This document shows, in pieces, positions 2,757 through 14,571 of a stretch of 64,000 nt of DNA. The stretch is from Candidatus Zhuqueibacterota bacterium. GTDB lineage: Bacteria > Zhuqueibacterota > Zhuqueibacteria > Residuimicrobiales > Oceaniaggregativiventaceae. The stretch lies in the NCBI GenBank assembly GCA_014728085.1, contig WJMF01000231.1, positions 1-64,000 on the forward strand, in the 5' to 3' direction. The notes beneath the pieces were generated by a model. The model saw only the letters and a list, made by a program, of their open reading frames with translations, ran no database searches and was not told where the DNA came from. Numbering within the stretch: position 1 is the first letter of the stretch; each line of letters begins with the position of its first letter. A program made the position numbers and the translations under genes.

Positions 2757-3974
2757 TTAGCCACAACCGCCCTGGCGCCGTACTTTTTTTACCAACTCAA
2801 CTTTTTGTTCATACTCTAATTTTTCCAGCCATTTCTCCGAGGGCTCGGACAGCGGATGTCTTGAACCCAGCGCTTTATCGAATTCATATGGCAATGCTTC
2901 ATCCCATTTTTTATTCGGGTGAACTTTTTCCCTTTTTTCTGCAAAGGTGCGCAGCCAGTTGTTGATTCCACCTGCAAGGATATAGACATTGGGGATTTTT
3001 TGCGCCATCAGAATTTTCCAGGCCTTAACGGCATTTTTTTCATTGTTACTGACTGTAACGATGACGGCATTGGCAGGGAGTTTTGCTATCCAGGAGGATA
3101 CAGGTGCGAGATCGTTGATGTCGATATGTCTGGCGTCTTTGAGATGAAATAAATTGAAATCCCTTTCATCGCGAAGATCCAGAGTGACCAATTTCCGGCT
3201 ATCGTCATAATAGATCTCAAGCCATTCTCCGGGATGGAGATGAACGTTTCGATTCTGCAACAGAGGTTGTTTTTCCTCTGCGATCCATTCCCACTTGTCC
3301 TCGATGGTCGGCTGGCCGAGCAGAAGAATAACGACCGCTATCGAAATCATGATGCCGGCACCGATATATCGTGTTTTGGGTTCTTTTTTAAGATTTTTAT
3401 TTCCATAAATGCGTTCCAGGTGTTCTCCGCCCCGGAACATAAAGAGGGCCATGAATAAAACCAAAAGCACCACGATACCTGTGGGAAGGCCAAACAGTTC
3501 CGGCAGATTAACGCGGCCATAAAAGGAAGAATTCCAGAAATTCTGAAAACGCTGAACGGTTTCGCCAAAGACAAAGATGCCGAACATGGTGCCGAGGGCG
3601 AAAAAGAGACCATCGATTTTTAACGTCGCCAGAGCGACGATAGAGGTGCCGGGACAAAAGCCGCCGATAATGAATCCGACTCCCATAATCAATCCACCGA
3701 CGATGCCGGGCCACAGATAGGTCGGATTGACCCAAATGAGGTCATAATCGAGCAACTCTAAAGCTGATGTCAGAAAAATAAGCAGCATAGCGGTGATAAT
3801 AGCGGTGAACATCACCTTAAGGACGGTGAGATCCTTGAAATAAAACTGTGCAGCGAGTTTTGTCGATTTGGCGAATCCGGACATTTCCAGTACTGCGCCA
3901 AAAAGAATTCCGATAATGAAATATATTATATAGGACCCGGGGCCCAGCCATTGTTCGAACGGAAAAGGAGCCAT
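2757..3974 (-). CDS. YeeE/YedE-type sulfur transporter half fused to a rhodanese-like domain
   Basis: The 405-residue protein begins with a YeeE/YedE membrane unit (about residues 12-220). It has several hydrophobic helices and the conserved GGFCPGT (104-110), whose cysteine is a thiosulfate-handling site in the characterised transporter TsuA. A further helix at about 203-220 precedes a rhodanese-like domain (about 250-345). The rhodanese loop reads TVSNNEKNA where an active cysteine is expected, so this domain appears catalytically dead or altered. The C-terminus ends in QGGCG, offering a lone terminal cysteine. It is the last gene of the cytochrome operon, 13 bases after the partner half-transporter, and probably imports or hands over sulfane sulfur or thiosulfate. 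Confidence 0.85.
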   Translation of the reverse strand: MAPFPFEQWLGPGSYIIYFIIGILFGAVLEMSGFAKSTKLAAQFYFKDLTVLKVMFTAIITAMLLIFLTSALELLDYDLIWVNPTYLWPGIVGGLIMGVGFIIGGFCPGTSIVALATLKIDGLFFALGTMFGIFVFGETVQRFQNFWNSSFYGRVNLPELFGLPTGIVVLLVLFMALFMFRGGEHLERIYGNKNLKKEPKTRYIGAGIMISIAVVILLLGQPTIEDKWEWIAEEKQPLLQNRNVHLHPGEWLEIYYDDSRKLVTLDLRDERDFNLFHLKDARHIDINDLAPVSSWIAKLPANAVIVTVSNNEKNAVKAWKILMAQKIPNVYILAGGINNWLRTFAEKREKVHPNKKWDEALPYEFDKALGSRHPLSEPSEKWLEKLEYEQKVELVKKVRRQGGCG

Positions 3975-3987
3975 GATCTTATCCTTG

Positions 3988-4524
3988 TTAATTCCATGTT
4001 TTTCTTAGAAAATATGCCAATGCATAAGCGCCGGCAAAGACGGCGAACATAAACGCCCAGCTGCCGGCGGAAAGAACAGCACCGCCTGATAGCGCCTGTC
4101 CCGACGTACATCCGCGCGCAAAGCGGGCACCGTATCCCATAAAGGAGCCGCCGATAAATGCCAGCAACCAGCGCTGTTTGGTGGAAATGCGGGGGCCTTT
4201 ATTGGTTTCGATTTTGAGCCGTCCGTGCAGCCAGCCGGATATTAAGCCACCTGCAATGGTCCCAAGTAGCATAAAGACAATCCAGTGATTCAATGGATTG
4301 AGTTCTCCGCCGGCCATTTTCAGCAAATAGGGCGTCTGGTCGATATGGCCGGGCACGATCAAATCCTGTATATAGACGATAATTCGGTTTAATCCCCCCG
4401 AAGCCCCCAGACCATTGCCGGTAAGGAAGAATGCCAAAAATAAAACCAGTCCGAGCAGAACACCGCCCAGATAGGGGTGGACATAAGGTTTGCCTGTATT
4501 GGGTTCGAATTGTTTATTGTTCAT
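3988..4524 (-). CDS. YeeE/YedE-type sulfur transporter half
   Basis: A 178-residue membrane protein with four or five hydrophobic segments and the signature 'ARGCTSGQALSGG' near residue 137, the form of the conserved GCTSGH motif of YeeE/YedE proteins. It matches one half of a full-length transporter, while the neighbouring 2757-3974 gene carries the other half with the CPGT cysteine. Split pairs of this kind are known in the family. Its start overlaps the end of the seven-haem cytochrome gene by 11 bases, so the two are translationally coupled. Transport of thiosulfate or another sulfur compound into the cell is the likely role. Confidence 0.87.
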   Translation of the reverse strand: MNNKQFEPNTGKPYVHPYLGGVLLGLVLFLAFFLTGNGLGASGGLNRIIVYIQDLIVPGHIDQTPYLLKMAGGELNPLNHWIVFMLLGTIAGGLISGWLHGRLKIETNKGPRISTKQRWLLAFIGGSFMGYGARFARGCTSGQALSGGAVLSAGSWAFMFAVFAGAYALAYFLRKTWN

Positions 4525-7183
4525 GACGGGACTCCTGTGATTTCATTTCGATTTCTTCCCAGCCTACGATCATAGCGCGGATATTGGATGTTGGAGTATG
4601 ACCGGTTGTGGTGAGATAGATGTGCAAGAGTAAAAAAGCGGCAAAAAACCAGGCAATGAGCGAATGAAAGGGAATTAAAAGTTCCAATCCACCCACTTTT
4701 GATAAAAATTCCGGCCAGTGCTGTGCACCCCAGATGAGGATACCGGTGATGATTTGCACCGGTAGCAGTATATTCAATATGACAAGATAGGTGATCTTTT
4801 GCAGGGGATTTAATCTTTTTTCCGGCGTTTTTTCAAAGGGGTGAGGCTGATTTCGGAAAATGCCCCTGAGATAATAGCTCATCTGTTGTACCGCTTGATT
4901 GAAAAATCCCTGTGGTTCGGGAAGGTAACGCTTGATATTGCCGCTGGCGAAATGATAAAACAGAGACAGAAAAGCATTAACTACCAATATTACGGCGAGG
5001 ATGTTGTGTACCCAAACAGCAGCCTCGAATGAGAGGAATCCAAAGACATCGGGGGCATGAATAACCAGACCGGTAAAGATGAGTCCGATAATCGTTGCTG
5101 CCTGCATCCAGTGCCAAAAGCGTTCATAGACGCTGTACATATAGATCTGATGCGTCTTTACGCTTTCTTCGGAATGAACTGCTTTGCTTCGCAGTCGCAT
5201 ACCGGCATGGAGTACTATACCCAGCAGCACCAGAATTACAGACGCTGCGCCAATGATTTGAACCCACAACACGGAGTTTAGACCGAGTATAAAAAATCCG
5301 GCGGCGCGGGCATTTGTCTGGTAAAAGAGTTTATTATCCATCTCAATAACGCGGCCATCGTGTGCCAGTTGGGCGTCCTGCACCATGCACGGGATTATGC
5401 CATAGGGATAATTTTGTGCCAACAAAAAGGGGCGGGTGGTGTTTGACGGATGGTTGTGACAAGCCTGGCAATCGCGCACAACCCATTCTCCATGGGTAAC
5501 ATTGTGATGAATAGCGAATGGCTGGATTTCTCCGCAGAGTTGTAAATTTTCAAGCCCGAGAGCAGAAAGGCGTCGACGGATAGCGTTCTGTTTCGCTTTG
5601 GTATCGAGCAGGCATTCATCGCTGTCGATTTTATTGTTTTTATTGCTGTCGAGTGCCTCGATGACATCCGGATGATAGTTATTGCCGGCAAAAAGAGCCC
5701 GTTTCAAATCATAAAGCCTCACCGGACGCTCCGGGTCGCCGAATGTCCAAAACCAGACGGTTATCAGGTTATAAGGCGCAAAACGTATTCGGCCATCGTA
5801 TTCACGGCGGGGTAACAGAACGGGCTTGTAGCCTTTGACAAGAGTGGAGATATCTTTTGCCGGGCCGTCGATACTGCGGCATTCCATTCGTGGTTTCTGA
5901 TCTGCAGTCAGGATACTCCAGTCGAGAAGGCGCCTCGCGGGGGCATATAATTTGGGAATATGACAGGATTCACAGGTTACACTGTTTTGATGCCTCTGGC
6001 GATAGGGTAACCAGGGATGTGCGACGTTAAAATCGTGGCAGGATTCACAGCGCCGCATCGTTGCTTTGAGCTCGGGGGCAAGGCCGGCAAACGAACTCTG
6101 ACCGCGCGCGAATTGATGACTCGGACGATATAAATAATCCTCCAGCTCCAGTCTTCTCGGAGAAAAAAGAAGATGAGCCGGGCGGCTCTCGGGATCTTCC
6201 TGGTAGAAAAAGGGATTATTAATAGAATGGTGGCAATCAATACAATTGAGCAACCGCTCTGCATGAATATCCCAGGACCGGTTCAGGTCACGTTTGTTTT
6301 TGAGATTCATACCGCTGTCGACCAGTCTTTGCGCTGTGATGACCTGGCCGGTGGTTTCGGTCATCCAGTGTTGAGGCTGACAACCCGCTGTAATCAGTGG
6401 AATATTCGGGTCGTCGTGCACCAGGCCATGACAAAAGCCGCAATTATCGTTCTTTGGTTCTTGTACAAGTATATAATCCGCCGATAAATTTTGCTGTGGC
6501 CCAAAAGCCGATCGGATATATGAATAGGTGCCGTTTTTTTCGCGAACAATGCCCGTTTCCAACAGAGTCGCGGTATTTGCCCATTTGAATGTTCCGGATT
6601 TCAAAGCGTTTAATCTGGCGTTGTTATTGGGATTGGGAATATGGCAGAGAAAGCAATTCATCTCTACAACACCCGACTGTTTCCAGTCCCAGGTTTCGAT
6701 TTTACCTCTCTGTGAATTGAGGCGTTGGCTCTCCTCTTTCATCGTCAGGTCATCGAGTCTTTCGCCATTGACGCTGTAGACGGCAGGACCGCCACCGACA
6801 TGGCGGGCGCCAAATAATTTCAGCCATTCCGCTCTGCCCGGGTCGAGATATTCATCATATTCGGCCGGCAGATATCGATAAACCAGCGAATTCCAGCGAC
6901 CAAACATACCGGGACTAAAGTCCCAGGGGCGCCCGGATTCCGTTTTACCGGCCTCCTTTATCTGATCAAAACCCACCTGACTGTGAAAGCTGTGACTGCT
7001 GATATAGTCCGTGTCATGACAACCGCCACAGGTACGCAGGGTTGATATCGGATTGTTGCTTTTCAGGACATTTTTATCATCCTCATCCAGCAGGGGAAAA
7101 ACAGGATGCATATTTTGTCCGAAAACCATGGCAAGCGGGAAAATGACGACCAGGAATAAACGCATGGATTTGTGGAACCACAT
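4514..7183 (-). CDS. Seven-haem cytochrome c fused to a cytochrome b561-type membrane domain
   Basis: This 889-residue protein starts with a signal-like hydrophobic segment (residues 8-22). It contains seven CxxCH haem-c sites at about residues 52, 177, 248, 314, 379, 404 and 572. An EF-hand-like loop (DSNKNNKIDSDE) lies near 512. A transmembrane helix near 634-658 leads to a cytochrome b561/Ni-hydrogenase-type domain (about 682-865) with membrane histidines that could bind two b haems. The natural reading is a quinol-oxidising membrane subunit joined directly to a periplasmic haem wire that feeds the octahaem protein encoded 15 bases upstream. A separate b subunit plus a separate c subunit would be more usual, so the fusion is notable. 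Confidence 0.85.
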   Translation of the reverse strand: MWFHKSMRLFLVVIFPLAMVFGQNMHPVFPLLDEDDKNVLKSNNPISTLRTCGGCHDTDYISSHSFHSQVGFDQIKEAGKTESGRPWDFSPGMFGRWNSLVYRYLPAEYDEYLDPGRAEWLKLFGARHVGGGPAVYSVNGERLDDLTMKEESQRLNSQRGKIETWDWKQSGVVEMNCFLCHIPNPNNNARLNALKSGTFKWANTATLLETGIVREKNGTYSYIRSAFGPQQNLSADYILVQEPKNDNCGFCHGLVHDDPNIPLITAGCQPQHWMTETTGQVITAQRLVDSGMNLKNKRDLNRSWDIHAERLLNCIDCHHSINNPFFYQEDPESRPAHLLFSPRRLELEDYLYRPSHQFARGQSSFAGLAPELKATMRRCESCHDFNVAHPWLPYRQRHQNSVTCESCHIPKLYAPARRLLDWSILTADQKPRMECRSIDGPAKDISTLVKGYKPVLLPRREYDGRIRFAPYNLITVWFWTFGDPERPVRLYDLKRALFAGNNYHPDVIEALDSNKNNKIDSDECLLDTKAKQNAIRRRLSALGLENLQLCGEIQPFAIHHNVTHGEWVVRDCQACHNHPSNTTRPFLLAQNYPYGIIPCMVQDAQLAHDGRVIEMDNKLFYQTNARAAGFFILGLNSVLWVQIIGAASVILVLLGIVLHAGMRLRSKAVHSEESVKTHQIYMYSVYERFWHWMQAATIIGLIFTGLVIHAPDVFGFLSFEAAVWVHNILAVILVVNAFLSLFYHFASGNIKRYLPEPQGFFNQAVQQMSYYLRGIFRNQPHPFEKTPEKRLNPLQKITYLVILNILLPVQIITGILIWGAQHWPEFLSKVGGLELLIPFHSLIAWFFAAFLLLHIYLTTTGHTPTSNIRAMIVGWEEIEMKSQESRHEQ

Positions 7184-7198
7184 GATCGACCGTCCTTT

Positions 7199-8629
7199 TT
7201 AGTTTTTTCGTCCACCGTAAAGCATGGGATCACCCTCATACCCGAGAGCTGCCCAGTTCAGCCTCTGTTCTCCTTCTTCTCCATGACAGTCGTTGCATTG
7301 CAACGTTTTTGAGGTTGGAGCCACCATATGCGTAATCGGCCAAAACATGGCGGTTGAGGTGAAACCGAAGGAACCGCTGTAGGGAAGCCCGACGGCTTTT
7401 GAGCCCAGCCTGGCGGCTTTGTCCCAATCGAATTCGGTCCAGTATCCCCCTTTGCCCCATGTTTTGGGCTGTAAAAGATAGTTATAGGTTTTATCATAAA
7501 TCTGTTCTGCCAGATGAATTTTGAAGGGCCATATTCTGGCATTCGGATCATCGATGGATCCTCTGGGTTCATTAAGCATTGTAACCTCATCAGGATCGAT
7601 AGTGTCTCCGAATAGATAGGGTTTTGTATTGCCGTTATACCAAAAATAATCGGGCTTGATATTGCGTTCATAGACAAAACGACCTTTGATCTTGATATAG
7701 TCATGCGGGTCTTCGGGCAAATCCTGACCGGCAGCAGACCAGTCCCAATGCATTTTGGTGGCCTCTTTTACGGCTGCTTCCGGGATGTGGCAGGCCTGGC
7801 AGGCAACACTAAGATTATGCAGGTTTAATCGTTCATCCTGGTGAACATTCATGGCATGGCAGTCGATACAGTAAATCTGGTTTCGGTCATCCGAGCTTAC
7901 CGATATCGAGCGTCCCATGATGTTGTGTTCCCGGGTGCGATGGCAATCGGTACATATGAATTCATGTTTGCCCATATGAATATCAATGCGTTCACTGGGA
8001 TAGTACAGGCTTTCATCCAAATCGCCGTGTTTTACCGCATTGCCGCCCCCGCCGCGAAAGTGACAACCGCCGCAATTTTCGCGTGTCGGAATACCAACGC
8101 TCTGAGCTGCCAGGGCCAGGTCGACACCTTCTGCCGGATATCCACCTTTGGTTTTGATATACTGGCCTGATTGGTCATGACAGACGATGCAATCAATCGC
8201 AGAGGGATCCTCAAAATCAAAGGTTTCATCGACCCAACCATAACCCACATGGCATGCTGTGCAGGGTGGCCAGTTGGAGCGGACGCCAATACAAAAATTA
8301 TTAATGGCATTCTTTTTGCCCAAAACAACGGCTTCCTGACGTTCCGGCAGCTCGACCGGTTCGCTTTCCCAGGTCCAGTGCGCGTTTTGCATCACCTCTA
8401 TAGCTGTTTCTTCATGACATTGCAAACATTCTTTTGTAACCGCAGAGCCATCTGCATAAGGACCCGGCATCAATTGGCTGTGATCCGTGTGTTGAGTATG
8501 TTGTGGTAAAAAGGACCATGGATCGTGTTGTAACTTGGTGAGCCGCGGATAGAAGAGGTAGATCGGGAGTATAAGAAAAAAAAGCACCAGGAGAGGAATG
8601 ATAATCCAGAGGTTTTGCTGCTTCATCAT
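7199..8629 (-). CDS. otr: Octahaem c-type cytochrome, tetrathionate reductase (OTR) family
   Basis: The 476-residue protein has an N-terminal membrane anchor (about 7-27) and eight CxxCH motifs at about residues 68, 123, 147, 186, 226, 254, 277 and 445. This number and spacing, with a long haem-free stretch before the last site, fit the octahaem tetrathionate reductase family. A GKKN lysine pair (105-106) precedes the second haem and is the likely counterpart of the lysine that ligates the active-site haem in Shewanella OTR; that equivalence is inferred. OTR enzymes reduce tetrathionate, nitrite and hydroxylamine in vitro. It is the first gene of the minus-strand operon, and the neighbouring sulfur transporters favour a sulfur-oxyanion substrate. 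Confidence 0.92.
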   Translation of the reverse strand: MMKQQNLWIIIPLLVLFFLILPIYLFYPRLTKLQHDPWSFLPQHTQHTDHSQLMPGPYADGSAVTKECLQCHEETAIEVMQNAHWTWESEPVELPERQEAVVLGKKNAINNFCIGVRSNWPPCTACHVGYGWVDETFDFEDPSAIDCIVCHDQSGQYIKTKGGYPAEGVDLALAAQSVGIPTRENCGGCHFRGGGGNAVKHGDLDESLYYPSERIDIHMGKHEFICTDCHRTREHNIMGRSISVSSDDRNQIYCIDCHAMNVHQDERLNLHNLSVACQACHIPEAAVKEATKMHWDWSAAGQDLPEDPHDYIKIKGRFVYERNIKPDYFWYNGNTKPYLFGDTIDPDEVTMLNEPRGSIDDPNARIWPFKIHLAEQIYDKTYNYLLQPKTWGKGGYWTEFDWDKAARLGSKAVGLPYSGSFGFTSTAMFWPITHMVAPTSKTLQCNDCHGEEGEQRLNWAALGYEGDPMLYGGRKN

Positions 8630-9024: not shown

Positions 9025-11544
9025 ATGAAAAAGTTTGAAAGAAATTGGATCTCTATTCATGTTGCCCTGATGGTTTCGCTTTTGTTGTTGTGCGCACCGG
9101 CTTTTGCTCAGGTACGCTATGAGATTAAAATGGGAGCGCACATCGGCGGCTATTGGGGTAGTGCAGCGGTAACCGACGATTATGCATTTGTCTGTCAGGG
9201 GACAATGCTCTCTACAATCGATTTAACCACGCCGTCACTGACCAAAGTTAATTCCTATATGCTCATGGCCGAACCCACCAACATGGTTTATGCGGATAAC
9301 AAGTTGTTTTTGACTGCAGGTCAAAGCGATTCCTCTTTTCAGATTTTTGATGTCGAGGATCCGCTCAATCCGGTGTTACTCGGGACAGCTGATATCAATT
9401 TGGGTTGGGGTAGTGGTTTAGCGGTCAGTGAAAATTTTGCATGCCTGACCTCGCGTACCGAACTCCACCTCATCGATATTGCCAATCCTGCTTTGCCGGT
9501 TGTAGCGGCAACAGTTACTCTGGATGCCAGGGACATTTGTCTCTCTGGCGAGACGCTTTTTGCGGTCACAGAAGGACATCTGGTCATCTATGACGTGAGC
9601 ACTCTGGCGGCACCCAAAGAAATCAGCAGAACGCCGCTTAAAGATGGGTCTGTAGTCAGTATTCACAATAACCACCTCTTCGTCGGCATAACGGATTATG
9701 GTGGAGCACGATTTGGTCTGCAGATTGTTGATGTCAGCGACAAAAACAATCCACAGCTAAAAGGGTTTCTGGCGACAAGAGCAGAAGGGGAAGAACAGGA
9801 CGATCTGGATCCCAAGTCGATTGTTTCCAATGGCCCGATCGCTTACGTCGGTTGTAAGAATGCCTGGTTGATCATCGTCGATGTTTCGAATGTCGATGCT
9901 CCTGTTAAAGAGAGTGAAATCAGGTTGGCCTCCGGCTCATTTCCTTCCATTACTTCGCTGAATATATCCGGTTCTTATCTATATGCAACAACAGGGGCCT
10001 GTGCAGCCGGGTTTGTCAGAGTCGATGTTGCCGAAAGTGACAATCCTGCCATTGCTGATCAGATGGTGGAACCCTGGGATATTCAGAGTCTGTTTTCCCG
10101 CCGTGATACACTGTATGTCTCTTCAATTGAACGGCTATGGATTTACAGGGTTAATGATCCTGATCATCCGCAGTTGCTGGGATCAGACGATCGCTGGGGT
10201 GAAATGGTGCATATTGCCGCTGCCGGCAGCTATCTCTATGGTATTCGGAATGATTCATTATATGTTCTGACTGTTTCTGATCCGGCGACTATTCAGCTTG
10301 CCGGTAGCTACCAGAGTAGTAAAGGGGACCTGCGCCGGATTAATGTGAGAGATCAAAAGGCATTTTTACTGAATTCGGACAAGAACCAACCGCATGTCAT
10401 AGTTGTGGATGTCTCAAATACGGCAAATCCACAGGAGATCACCTCCTATCTGCTATCCGGAGAGGCGCGTGCGTTGCATGCACCGACGGGCGACTCTTTA
10501 ATCTATGTGGCCTATAGCGGTGGGCCGCTCAACAACGGCTTTGTTATTTTGGATACGCAAAAGTCAACAAATCCGCAGGTTGTCGGCGGTAATGAGGTCA
10601 GAGGGGTTCCAAGCACCATCTGGGTCTCGGACTCGTTATTGTTCGTCGGCAGCAATGCTGATAATGATTCATGTTATCTGCAATCTTTCAATATCTCCAC
10701 GCCGGCACAGCCTGATTTATTTAATGCCGTTTCCAAAGCGGGTGAGATATGGGATGTTAAAGCGAGACTACCCCAGCTGATGACAAGCCTGCCCAGCGGT
10801 TCGCTTTATTTGTTAAACGGCTTGAAATACTGTCAGCGCGGTTATTATTATGTGCCATCCTCTTTGTTTTTTACCTTTTTCTGGACGGGCGGAGGGTTTC
10901 CATCCGGCATGGCGACAATGGCAGGCTGGGGTGATACGCCCACCTTGCGGGCAAGCGCCAGCTGGGGTATCTTTTTCCTCTGGTTGTACTATTGGCTGGC
11001 TGTGCAGCAGCTCTTCATCTATCCTCAGGATGCAACGGTCCCTCAGGGGGATCAGGTAAAGTTTGGCACAAATGCGTTTGACCAACGCGGCAATGATACC
11101 AAAGGTGAATACAAATGGACGGCGACCGGTGGTGAAATGGACACCCTGACGGGAGAGTATACCGCTACGGAAACAGGTACCTTTACTATTACCGTCACAG
11201 ACACCCTCACCGGAAAGTCATCGAGCACAACGGTTACCGTGACTCTTGCAACTGTTGTGAAAGCATCGGCTGGCGAAATTACAGAGTACCGGCTTGAACA
11301 GAACTACCCCAACCCGTTCAATCCCGAAACCACAATATCCTATTCGATCAGGGAAGCGGCGCAGGTACGCCTGTCGCTCATCAATATCAGAGGCCGTACG
11401 GTCATGACCCTGATTGACCAATACCAGTCACCAGGTGCATATCAATATAGGTTTACAGCCGCGGACCTGCCTTCCGGGATTTATTTTTATCGCCTGCAGG
11501 CAAATGCATTCGGGCAGGTTCGTAAAATGGTTATAATTGAATGA
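9025..11544 (+). CDS. Secreted LVIVD-repeat protein with Ig-like and C-terminal sorting domains
   Basis: The 839-residue protein has a Sec signal (about 1-29, ending AFAQ). A long region of LVIVD repeats follows, visible as 'LQIVDVSDKNNPQLKG', 'LIIVDVSNVDAP' and 'LWIYRVNDPDHPQLLG', which build a surface beta-propeller. An unusual aromatic, hydrophobic stretch (about 602-670) is followed by an Ig-like domain (about 675-740). From 754 comes a sorting/FlgD-like domain starting EYRLEQNYPNPFNPETTISY. Such tails direct proteins to the type IX secretion route or cell surface in FCB bacteria. The gene is monocistronic: good AAGGAG site before, strong terminator after. Binding or adhesion is plausible; no enzyme motif was seen. 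Confidence 0.87.
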   Translation: MKKFERNWISIHVALMVSLLLLCAPAFAQVRYEIKMGAHIGGYWGSAAVTDDYAFVCQGTMLSTIDLTTPSLTKVNSYMLMAEPTNMVYADNKLFLTAGQSDSSFQIFDVEDPLNPVLLGTADINLGWGSGLAVSENFACLTSRTELHLIDIANPALPVVAATVTLDARDICLSGETLFAVTEGHLVIYDVSTLAAPKEISRTPLKDGSVVSIHNNHLFVGITDYGGARFGLQIVDVSDKNNPQLKGFLATRAEGEEQDDLDPKSIVSNGPIAYVGCKNAWLIIVDVSNVDAPVKESEIRLASGSFPSITSLNISGSYLYATTGACAAGFVRVDVAESDNPAIADQMVEPWDIQSLFSRRDTLYVSSIERLWIYRVNDPDHPQLLGSDDRWGEMVHIAAAGSYLYGIRNDSLYVLTVSDPATIQLAGSYQSSKGDLRRINVRDQKAFLLNSDKNQPHVIVVDVSNTANPQEITSYLLSGEARALHAPTGDSLIYVAYSGGPLNNGFVILDTQKSTNPQVVGGNEVRGVPSTIWVSDSLLFVGSNADNDSCYLQSFNISTPAQPDLFNAVSKAGEIWDVKARLPQLMTSLPSGSLYLLNGLKYCQRGYYYVPSSLFFTFFWTGGGFPSGMATMAGWGDTPTLRASASWGIFFLWLYYWLAVQQLFIYPQDATVPQGDQVKFGTNAFDQRGNDTKGEYKWTATGGEMDTLTGEYTATETGTFTITVTDTLTGKSSSTTVTVTLATVVKASAGEITEYRLEQNYPNPFNPETTISYSIREAAQVRLSLINIRGRTVMTLIDQYQSPGAYQYRFTAADLPSGIYFYRLQANAFGQVRKMVIIE

Positions 11545-11921: not shown

Positions 11922-12389
11922 ATGAAATTGAATTTGTTACTCGCGATATTTATGCTGGCGTTGTTGACGCATGGCTGTGAGATTGATCATGGATTGGGTG
12001 TTCTGGGATCGAAGATTTCAGGAAAGGTAATTTTTATCAATCACGATCAAAAACCCGATTATGTTGAGGCTGTACGCATGGCTGCTGTTGTTGACTTTGA
12101 TTTTAGTGACATCAGCCTCAGCGATGCGGTTCTTGCCAATACGTCAGTGAATTTAAGCCGTGAAATCTCGGAATATTATATACCGGCGCCGTTAGCGTCT
12201 TATGAATTGATCGTCGCTATATGGAAACAAAAAGGTAAAGCCTGGAATGCCACCAATTGGCTCGGCTTCTATGGCTATGATCCGGTTAATCAGACAGTCG
12301 AGTACAAGAGCGTTACCTTGACGGAAAAAGATCCTGTTGCAGAAAATATTAATATTTATTGTGACTGGTCGACGATTCGTCCTAATTGA
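11922..12389 (+). CDS. Small putative lipoprotein
   Basis: A 155-residue protein when started at the ATG at 11922, which puts a short basic end and a hydrophobic segment directly before cysteine 19 (LLTHGC). This is a non-canonical but plausible lipobox. An upstream ATG at 11901 would add seven residues. The mature part has short beta-rich segments such as 'ISGKVIFINHDQKPDYVEAVRM' in shape, suggesting a beta-sandwich; no family was recognised. It ends four bases before the TonB receptor start, so it is probably a surface or periplasmic lipoprotein acting with that receptor, perhaps in substrate capture. Confidence 0.65.
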   Translation: MKLNLLLAIFMLALLTHGCEIDHGLGVLGSKISGKVIFINHDQKPDYVEAVRMAAVVDFDFSDISLSDAVLANTSVNLSREISEYYIPAPLASYELIVAIWKQKGKAWNATNWLGFYGYDPVNQTVEYKSVTLTEKDPVAENINIYCDWSTIRPN

Positions 12390-12393
12390 AGAA

Positions 12394-14571
12394 ATGAATA
12401 TGATGACAAGACAAATTTTAATTCTTATCTCGCTGATTTTTATTTCATCCACTCTGACATGGGCTGAAGACAGTTCGTCGATTCAGGGAAGAGTTACCGC
12501 TCAAGAAAGCGGTAAAGCCCTGGCCGGTGCCAATATACAGATCAGGAATACCTATATTGGGACAAGCAGTGATGAAAACGGTTATTTCCGTTTAACGAAC
12601 GTTCCCGCCGGTTCGGTTGAATTAAGCGTCAGTTATATCGGTTATAAATCCAAAACGGTTCAGCTGGATATCGGCACAGACCCTTTGCGCAACATTCACG
12701 TCGCTCTAACGGAAACACTGTTTAAAACCGAACAGGTTGTGGTTACCGCTTCAAGACAACCTGAAGAATTGGCCTCAGCGGTCTCGAGCATAGATGTCCT
12801 GGCGGCACGAGATATTCGGCAGCGCAACAGCGCGCGCCTGGATGAGGCGTTGCTTTCCGTTCCGGGCGTGACCCTTGTTGGTGAAAATATCAATATTCGC
12901 GGCGGAAGCGGTTATAACCGGTTGGGCGGAAACCGTACATTGGTTCTCATCGATGAGGTTCCCGTGTTGACCAGCGATCTGGGTGCTGCCAACTGGAATA
13001 TCCTGCCGGTATCCCAGGTCGACCATATAGAGGTTCTTAAAGGTGCAGCTTCTTCGCAATATGGCTCCGGAGCCCTGAGCGGAGTAATCAATATCATCAC
13101 CAAAGGTCCTTCACAATCCTCCCATCTTTCCCTGCAGCAGAGTTCAGGTATGTTTGATGACCCCTCGGTTCCGGAATGGAAATGGACGGACGAATTGCGC
13201 TATTTTCACCGAACCGATGTTGGTTATTCCAATAGCTTTGGTCCGGTTGGATTACGGCTGGCGCTTTCGAGGCATCAATCCACAGGGGATCGTCAGAATG
13301 GACAATTTGAACGCTGGACAATGACCGCCAAGGCGAGGTGGCAACTTGCAAAGCAGTCCAGTCTGACCCTCTTTTCGACCTACAGCATGGAGGAGCGTGA
13401 ACTGTTTTTGCAGTGGTTGGAACAGGATCGCGCTTTAATGGTACCGCCTCCGGAGCTGGGGAATAACTATGAACTGGATGGTTATGTCGGTTATCTGCAA
13501 TATCACAACCTTTTTTCGCCCACCTTGTCGACAAAGATCCGCCTGTCATATAATCAGCAATTGGTCGGGATTCCGGTTAACATTGAAAATGCTTTTACGC
13601 CGGCAATTGGCCTGGGCGGTGAGTTGCAGGTTCATTGGACCCCCCACATCAATCACAACCTTTCCCTGGGCATGGATTACAAGCGCGATGACGTTCAATC
13701 CGAATATTATGGCAAGCGCAGTGCAAACGGATTTTCTCCATATGCGCAGCATATCTGGAAAGTTTCCGAACGCATACAGATGAATACCGGTTTACGCTGG
13801 GACACCTATACGCTGGTGGGTGATTCGGTGGAAATGCAGCTCAGTCCGAGAGCAGGAATCAGCTTTCAACCCGTGTATGGAACCATTATACACGGCTCCA
13901 TCGGCAGGGGATTTCGCGCTGCAACAGTCGTTGAGCGGTTTATTTCAGTGGGAGGAAAGGATTTCAGAGCTGTTCCCAATCCGGATTTGCAGCCGGAGCG
14001 ATCCGTATTGCTTGAATTGGGAGTGCGGCAGCATCTCGGTAGCCGCGCCTATATGGAAGTGAATCTTTTTTCCAGTACCTATAAAAATTTAATCGAGCCG
14101 ACGCTTTTTGCTGATCTGTCGGCACAATTTATCAATTATCCCGCTGCACGTATTCGGGGTGTGGAAGCCGAATATCGCTGGCAGATTTTGCCGAAATTTT
14201 TATCTATGCAAACCTCGGCCACCTGGCTCGATGCCCGGGAGCTGGAGACCGATACCTTTCTGCCATACCGACCGCACTTTTCAGCTTATTTTTCTCCTGA
14301 AATCGAATACGGCCCTTTCCTCATACGTCTGGATTTCAGATATGCAAGCCGTCTCAAGCGGGTAACGGTCTATCCGCTGGATGAGCGCGTTCCGACCAAA
14401 GTCTGGAATTTTCATTTTATTTATCAAAGAGAGAATTTTGATCTTGAATTCCATATCAACAATGCTCTGAATTATAACTATACCGTTTCAGAACGCGTGC
14501 TGGGGGAGATACGCCATTTCATGCTGACATTCCGCACCGAGATATACGCGAACCAAGGAGAAAACCGATGA
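12394..14571 (+). CDS. TonB-dependent outer-membrane receptor
   Basis: Started at the ATG at 12394, just after the lipoprotein stop, the protein is about 725 residues. It has a signal peptide ending near TWAED, then a carboxypeptidase-regulatory-like domain (visible as GKALAGANIQI and DENGYFRLTNVPAG). Next comes a TonB plug: 'QVVVTASRQPEEL', 'VLIDEVPV', 'IEVLKGAASSQYGSGALSG' and 'VINIITKG'. The remaining 500 or so residues are alternating strands of a 22-stranded barrel ending in an aromatic-containing strand. It imports a scarce ligand across the outer membrane using TonB energy. The ligand is unknown; siderophore, vitamin and oligosaccharide receptors share this layout. The end overlaps the next start by four bases (ATGA). 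Confidence 0.93.
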   Translation: MNMMTRQILILISLIFISSTLTWAEDSSSIQGRVTAQESGKALAGANIQIRNTYIGTSSDENGYFRLTNVPAGSVELSVSYIGYKSKTVQLDIGTDPLRNIHVALTETLFKTEQVVVTASRQPEELASAVSSIDVLAARDIRQRNSARLDEALLSVPGVTLVGENINIRGGSGYNRLGGNRTLVLIDEVPVLTSDLGAANWNILPVSQVDHIEVLKGAASSQYGSGALSGVINIITKGPSQSSHLSLQQSSGMFDDPSVPEWKWTDELRYFHRTDVGYSNSFGPVGLRLALSRHQSTGDRQNGQFERWTMTAKARWQLAKQSSLTLFSTYSMEERELFLQWLEQDRALMVPPPELGNNYELDGYVGYLQYHNLFSPTLSTKIRLSYNQQLVGIPVNIENAFTPAIGLGGELQVHWTPHINHNLSLGMDYKRDDVQSEYYGKRSANGFSPYAQHIWKVSERIQMNTGLRWDTYTLVGDSVEMQLSPRAGISFQPVYGTIIHGSIGRGFRAATVVERFISVGGKDFRAVPNPDLQPERSVLLELGVRQHLGSRAYMEVNLFSSTYKNLIEPTLFADLSAQFINYPAARIRGVEAEYRWQILPKFLSMQTSATWLDARELETDTFLPYRPHFSAYFSPEIEYGPFLIRLDFRYASRLKRVTVYPLDERVPTKVWNFHFIYQRENFDLEFHINNALNYNYTVSERVLGEIRHFMLTFRTEIYANQGENR

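Follow-up and report, generated by a model that had tools for sequence, protein, structure and literature searches.

In a 64,000-nucleotide stretch of DNA from Candidatus Zhuqueibacterota bacterium (GenBank assembly GCA_014728085.1, contig WJMF01000231.1, positions 1 to 64,000; hereafter the window), we identified a gene that joins a seven-haem cytochrome c domain to a membrane cytochrome b module in one chain (hereafter the fusion). The gene lies directly downstream of one for octahaem tetrathionate reductase (OTR). By predicted structure its haem domain shares the fold of OTR, but it lacks the haem site at which OTR is catalytic. We propose, with a probability of roughly 0.55, that the fusion is the dedicated membrane electron feed of OTR, a quinol-to-OTR conduit that operates with coupled sulfur import. 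Four minus-strand genes run together at this locus: OTR, the fusion and two YeeE/YedE halves, the second of which also carries a rhodanese-like domain (Table 1). By their coordinates, 15 nucleotides separate OTR from the fusion, the fusion overlaps the first YeeE/YedE gene by 11 nucleotides, and 13 nucleotides separate the two YeeE/YedE genes. The fusion gene is present in a single copy in the window's genome (assembly of 5.19 Mb, 97.9% complete).

A seven-haem domain with the OTR fold

A first-pass annotation, made from the letters of the sequence, had read this gene as seven CxxCH sites and a membrane cytochrome b in one chain, and our analysis agrees. The open reading frame (ORF) is intact at 889 amino acids and has exactly seven CxxCH sites, which span residues 52-576; composition-matched shuffles of the protein (n = 10,000) contain 0.018 such sites on average and never more than 2. 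The N-terminus is a hydrophobic segment, and one helix (residues 639-669) stands between the c domain and the cytochrome b module. We scanned 84,980 species genomes and kept, as named loci, the best 80 of the 241 relatives that were confirmed; these 80 are mostly titled Chloroflexi or Anaerolineae, with others from KSB1, Neomarinimicrobiota and Eisenbacteria. The frame is open and carries seven CxxCH sites in 77 of 77 full-length named relatives (the ORF script gave none for 3 of the 80 loci). In three further genomes of the same order as the window's (L007-L009) the fusion is shortened to 741-750 amino acids and keeps its seven CxxCH sites, and most of the former haem-2 region described below is gone together with the segment of an EF-hand-like loop. 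This loop has a weak match to recoverin in the window's fusion (E 0.2). A SoxA-like match near C177 (E 0.037) was set aside as chance.

The C-terminal domain matches PF01292 with an E-value of 6.3e-24 (85.2 bits against a gathering cut-off of 30.1) and is the only above-cut-off match to this family in the window's genome. Its best NCBIfam match is the model for the cytochrome B subunit of thiosulfate reductase, at 134.5 bits, short of the 204 that the model requires. The four candidate b-haem His residues are invariant in 52 of 52 alignment rows and align with His residues of HyaC, which we take to be haem ligands. In structural comparisons with VIA-align, the AlphaFold2 model of the whole fusion matches FdnI (1kqf_C, Z 13.8) and HyaC (6g94, Z 10.5).

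The fold of the c domain points to OTR. The whole-fusion model, built from the 52-row alignment, has a predicted local distance difference test score (pLDDT) of 82.0 and a predicted template modelling score (pTM) of 0.78. With unrelated rows disregarded, its top Foldseek match is the OTR structure 1SP3 (E 2.5e-6), followed by FdnI, and VIA-align places 338 residues of its c part (residues 23-638) on 1SP3 with Z 11.7. Modelled alone, the c domain scores higher (pLDDT 84.4, pTM 0.86), and 1SP3 is then its sole match, both in Foldseek below E 0.001 (E 4.5e-8) and in VIA-align at a Z of at least 2 (Z 13.3, root-mean-square deviation 3.6, 330 of 436 residues aligned). Foldseek global TM-scores against 1SP3 are low (0.32 and 0.43); the c domain is longer than OTR and has insertions. 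At the level of sequence the kinship is distant. The OTR profile TIGR04315 gives the c domain 21.0 bits, below its cut-off of 375, the profile of the Methanosarcina protein MmcA (TIGR04314) gives 34.9 bits against a cut-off of 250 with a partial-domain match at E 7.4e-9, and a sequence-only profile alignment with OTR covers the later haem motifs only. The domain therefore has the fold of OTR and has neither the family score nor the eight haems, including the Lys-ligated haem 2, that mark a member of the family. CbcA also has seven haems; a CbcA/c7-type origin for the fusion's haem domain is rejected, its sole structural match being OTR, although the seven-haem gene L011 (from G102), which a separate b561 gene follows, weakly resembles the C-terminal part of the fusion's haem domain (46.6 bits).

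A haem-2 site lost from the fusion and kept in a sister family

Closest to the c domain is an eight-haem sister family (P0009, P0010 and L160-L162), which aligns with the whole domain (hhalign E 3.6e-64, 539 columns). In this family P0009 has eight CxxCH sites in the OTR order, the haem site CxxCHPGGGP is kept, and an invariant Lys (K304 of P0009) aligns with K200 of the window's OTR, itself the counterpart of K153 in 1SP3. Upstream of the haem site lies the motif W[C/U]xP, in which P0009 and P0010 have Cys at the second position; four genomes have an in-frame TGA there (L015/G068, L018/G070, L019/G054 and L020/G066; L015, L018 and L019 are the same loci as L160, L162 and L161). One family member, L160, ends in a formate dehydrogenase gamma-type cytochrome b.

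Haem 2 of OTR is described as catalytic and Lys-ligated (PMC11024163; PMC4484225). At the corresponding position of the fusion, the CxxC is absent in 52 of 52 rows and the window reads FGARHVGGGP. The Cys/Sec position (Sec, selenocysteine) is Asn, Asp or Ser in all 49 of the 52 rows that have it (N98 in the window), and the Lys position is variable, with Lys in 2 of 52 rows and D289 in the window. This haem-2 assignment rests on the sister-family alignment, the order of motifs and the fold match rather than on a residue-level structural alignment. MmcA is reported to be a seven-haem relative of OTR that lacks haem 2 and its Lys and serves as an electron conduit (PMC11024163). Given the loss of the haem-2 CxxC, the Lys and the Cys/Sec, and by analogy with MmcA, the haem domain of the fusion is probably a disarmed twin of OTR that moves electrons, and catalysis by it is unlikely.

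OTR and fusion are paired across genomes

The first-pass annotation had placed an octahaem OTR gene upstream of the fusion, and this identification holds: the gene scores 557.7 bits against the TIGR04315 cut-off of 375 and matches 1SP3 at E 1.9e-152. To our sample of gene order we admitted 89 sequences, namely the window, L002-L009 and the 80 named loci (two pairs, L003 and L031 and L006 and L097, are duplicates), and searched them with tblastn. OTR is directly upstream on the same strand in all 73 sequences with more than 1.5 kb of upstream DNA, and both YeeE halves are downstream in all 64 with more than 2.5 kb of downstream DNA.

These loci were collected by similarity to the fusion, and we therefore made a check on an unbiased sample: 301 genomes taken evenly across the phylum to which G154, the genome with the named Anaerolineae locus L035, belongs. 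OTR scored over its cut-off in 12 genomes, and the fusion was found in the same 12, adjacent to OTR on one strand each time; G264 has a weak OTR match (283.6 bits) and no fusion. At no locus with enough flanking sequence (73 of 73; 12 of 12) did a relative of the fusion stand beside an unrelated reductase in place of OTR, an outcome that would have spoken against the first-pass idea of a self-contained system. In the window's phylum, OTR exceeds the cut-off in 13 of 82 genomes searched and the fusion adjoins it in 9. Two others (G031 and G015) combine OTR with a plain b561 of 214-236 amino acids and both YeeE genes, a layout also found outside the phylum in G088; in addition, G052 has an isolated OTR, the locus of G060 is cut by a contig end, and G049 carries an additional second OTR that is isolated. 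Because some OTR operons have a b561 where the fusion adds a seven-haem domain, we regard the plain b561 as the simpler layout. Pairwise identities of the fusion and of OTR are correlated across 69 loci (r = 0.82, with shared phylogeny uncorrected).

Several further features of OTR genes came to light. A Cys outside the haem motifs of the window's OTR, C113 (C64 of 1SP3 by alignment), is conserved in 21 of 21 sequences and may correspond to the sister family's Cys/Sec. A gene for an ArsR/SmtB-type regulator is directly upstream of OTR in 56 of 69 loci with room for it (for example, L035:4040-4369), and its single Cys is invariant in 56 of 56; no such gene precedes OTR in the KSB1 loci tested (the window, L031 and L097). 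Two OTR genes (L152:4003-5376 and L151:4781-6148) have neither a cytochrome b nor a YeeE gene adjacent. Previous reports note OTR genes in Anaerolineae bins (PMC7887784) and, in Thermosulfurimonas (T. dismutans), a cytochrome b encoded close to OTR and suggested as its connection to the membrane (PMC4911364).

A split YeeE channel with probable selenocysteine sites

The first-pass annotation had described two sulfur-transport genes downstream of the fusion. Their family stands, as both match Sulf_transp (PF04143; 81.4 and 54.2 bits, gathering cut-off 27), but their number does not: the matched ranges of the profile, 177-309 and 11-192, are complementary, so the two genes are halves of one channel, and two independent transporters can be rejected. 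We scored the second gene in 87 loci (L003 and L006 omitted), and the counts below exclude contig-end cuts and motif non-matches. In its rhodanese-like domain, the place of the catalytic Cys is taken by Ser in 61, Gly in 7 and Asp in 1 of the 69 loci read (Ser in the window), and an active rhodanese is rejected on this ground. Two other Cys are conserved in the family, one in the pore motif GGF[C]PGT and one at the C-terminal end, GG[C]G.

Both of these Cys are replaced by TGA in some genomes. The pore codon is TGT or TGC in 69 of 73 loci and TGA in 4 (L004, L034, L043 and L044), where the frame continues through conserved sequence; the tail codon is TGT or TGC in 59 of 64 and TGA in 5 (L043, L044, L058, L092 and L109), so that L043 and L044 have TGA at both sites. 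The GCxSG-type motif of the YeeE genes is encoded with TGT or TGC in 82 of 82 matches, and the window's own gene has Cys codons at its pore and tail. All five tail TGA codons are followed by a SECIS-like hairpin with a stem of at least 5 bp and a 3-nucleotide loop, starting 13 or 14 nucleotides downstream. A comparable hairpin is found anywhere in 9 of 58 Cys tails scored (of the 59), a difference with a Fisher p of 2.8e-4 in which the five TGA cases are partly related to one another. SelB is above its cut-off in 20 of 24 genomes searched, including the window's; in G150, home of the L058 tail, it is not above the cut-off and occurs as pieces only. Based on the TGA codons at Cys positions, the hairpins and SelB, these relatives of the YeeE half are probable selenoproteins. 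In characterized YeeE, three Cys relay thiosulfate to a further Cys, which belongs to YeeD (PMC11073785), and by analogy the C-terminal tail may act as a YeeD-like acceptor in cis.

Beyond the four genes, the window encodes on the plus strand a divergently oriented, secreted protein of LVIVD repeats that carries a C-terminal sorting domain for type IX secretion (9025-11544) and a protein that, by eye, resembles a TonB-dependent receptor (12337-14571).

Table 1. Positions in the window of the four-gene cluster and of the parts of the fusion.
Feature	Position	Strand	Basis or detail
Fusion gene, 889 amino acids: predicted OTR-fold seven-haem c domain and cytochrome b (PF01292)	4514..7183	-	Motif count, profile match, predicted fold
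Seven-haem c domain, residues 25-634	5282..7111	-	CxxCH starts at residues 52, 177, 248, 314, 379, 404, 572
Former haem-2 site, residues 124-133 (FGARHVGGGP)	6785..6814	-	Alignment with the eight-haem sister family
EF-hand-like loop, residues 512-523 (DSNKNNKIDSDE)	5615..5650	-	D512 and E523 nearly invariant
Cytochrome b module, residues 683-872	4568..5137	-	PF01292; candidate b-haem ligands H691, H726, H840, H854
Octahaem tetrathionate reductase (OTR)	7199..8629	-	Eight CxxCH; K200; one N-terminal transmembrane segment
YeeE/YedE half, C-terminal half of the Sulf_transp profile	3988..4524	-	PF04143
YeeE/YedE half, N-terminal half of the profile	2757..3974	-	Pore Cys107; Cys-less rhodanese-like domain; C-terminal GGCG

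Proposed function and alternatives

In our proposed model, quinol would be oxidized at the two-b-haem module of the fusion, and electrons would pass from the b haems to the seven c haems of the fusion's disarmed OTR-fold domain and then, by protein contact, to the eight haems of the separate, catalytically equipped OTR. The Lys-ligated haem 2 of OTR would reduce a sulfur oxyanion in the periplasm, for instance tetrathionate, which we favor because of OTR's known activity and the linkage to YeeE. The product (thiosulfate or sulfane sulfur) would enter through the split YeeE channel, by a Cys/Sec relay to the GG(C/U)G tail. The first-pass notion of a direct quinol-to-haem wire holds up in this model. 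Gene order, fold, the missing haem-2 CxxC and Cys/Sec, the conserved candidate b-haem His and the exchange of Cys and TGA come out of the computations; quinol as donor, contact between fusion and OTR, electron direction, substrate and import are what we infer. In such an operon, strictly conserved, OTR would have a definite role that can be put to the test, and electrons would reach it independently of the Shewanella CymA/STC shuttle. More tentatively, the two haem proteins could form an enzyme/pseudoenzyme pair, in which a stripped OTR fold moored at the quinol site docks onto its active sister to make a 15-c-haem wire, for a reduce-and-import sulfur respiration whose split-channel Cys/Sec relay ends in a tethered C-terminal thiol or selenol. 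If true, a respiratory electron-transfer module would have arisen in an unusual way, from a sister domain that lost its catalytic site and became the enzyme's dedicated redox partner. The exchange of Cys and TGA points at the thiols performing the chemistry.

Several points weigh against an electron feed dedicated to tetrathionate reduction by OTR. Not every OTR has the fusion, since within the window's phylum two genomes have a plain b561 instead, one has neither and one is cut at a contig end. The former haem-2 site is itself conserved, with R127 kept in 46, H128 in 40 and both G130 and G132 in 50 of 52 rows; because H128 and GGGP (49-50 of 52 rows) are kept, the site looks repurposed, not drifting, and it may have some unrecognised role. 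The loss of the Lys is read from an alignment within a long insertion, and an invariant K297 (52 of 52 rows) is nearby. C. abyssi carries Otr, but growth tests gave no support for its predicted respiration of sulfur compounds. Lastly, nitrite and hydroxylamine are substrates of the Shewanella enzyme as well (PMC4484225).

Among the alternatives, the system could run in reverse, with YeeE importing sulfur for further oxidation or for signalling, an explanation that we consider unlikely. It draws on the YeeE-like SoxT proteins of Hyphomicrobium, which bring in sulfur to be oxidized and take part in SoxR signalling (PMC11582611), on CbcBA, which was proposed to work in reverse in Seep-SRB2 (PMC10553843), and on the ArsR-type gene that so often precedes OTR; however, the accessible text of PMC11024163 and PMC4484225 characterizes OTR solely as a reductase. 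A quinol:nitrite or quinol:hydroxylamine reductase for respiration or detoxification, with the YeeE genes as passengers, would accord with the two additional activities of the Shewanella enzyme. Of the 13 fusion genomes that we searched, 6, among them the window's, have no NrfA-family match; NrfA is present in the other 7, and its co-occurrence with the fusion does not discriminate between the readings. We judge this function improbable, given that YeeE halves follow at every locus with enough downstream DNA and also in the three plain-b561 operons (G031, G015 and G088). It is rather doubtful, too, that the fusion is a general quinol oxidase of the CbcL kind, feeding several periplasmic or extracellular cytochromes with OTR as one client: the overall plan is that of CbcL and one more multihaem/b561 fusion (P0011) occurs in a relative, but the invariant pairing with OTR and the OTR fold of the haem domain argue for a dedicated partner. 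Finally, an error of assembly or reading frame, a concern raised in the first-pass annotation, can be dismissed, as can a chance origin of the CxxCH motifs, in view of the open full-length relatives and the shuffled sequences described above.

Comparison with known systems

OTR, cytochrome b modules, YeeE and multihaem c/b fusions such as CbcL are all of known kinds. In a literature search, with subscription texts mostly outside its reach, we found no published description of the OTR-fold fusion, of the four-gene operon or of the GGF[U]PGT and GG[U]G sites. Compared with OTR itself (S. oneidensis SO4144, 1SP3), the c domain of the fusion shares the predicted fold and its later haem motifs align, but it has seven rather than eight CxxCH sites, lacks the haem-2 CxxC and the aligned Lys, and is fused to a cytochrome b. 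The eight-haem Cys/Sec sister family aligns with the whole c domain but keeps haem 2, the Lys and the Cys or TGA.

In MmcA, to our knowledge, there is no cytochrome b part. Its gene is encoded with Rnf genes (PMC11024163), whereas the fusion is beside OTR. The Geobacter protein CbcL, a quinone oxidoreductase, has a nine-haem c domain on a six-helix module with two b haems (PMC9129911), and the fusion resembles it in combining a multihaem c domain with a predicted six-helix b-type module that has four invariant His. Compared by description, CbcL differs in having nine haems, against seven in the fusion, and a c domain poor in secondary structure; unlike the fusion, it has no OTR partner mentioned in the accessible portion of PMC9129911.

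YeeE/TsuA with YeeD, and SoxT, are likewise Sulf_transp proteins with conserved Cys (PMC11073785, PMC11582611), but here the gene is split into halves and has a Cys-less rhodanese-like domain and a C-terminal GGCG tail. A review table includes a Sec-containing YeeE with the motif GUxSG and an OTR annotated in GenBank as containing Sec (PMC13188914), whereas TGA falls at GGF[U]PGT and GG[U]G in the present family. Set against these systems, what is new is a predicted OTR-fold haem domain without the haem-2 site, the alternative operons with a plain b561, and a split YeeE with probable Sec sites.

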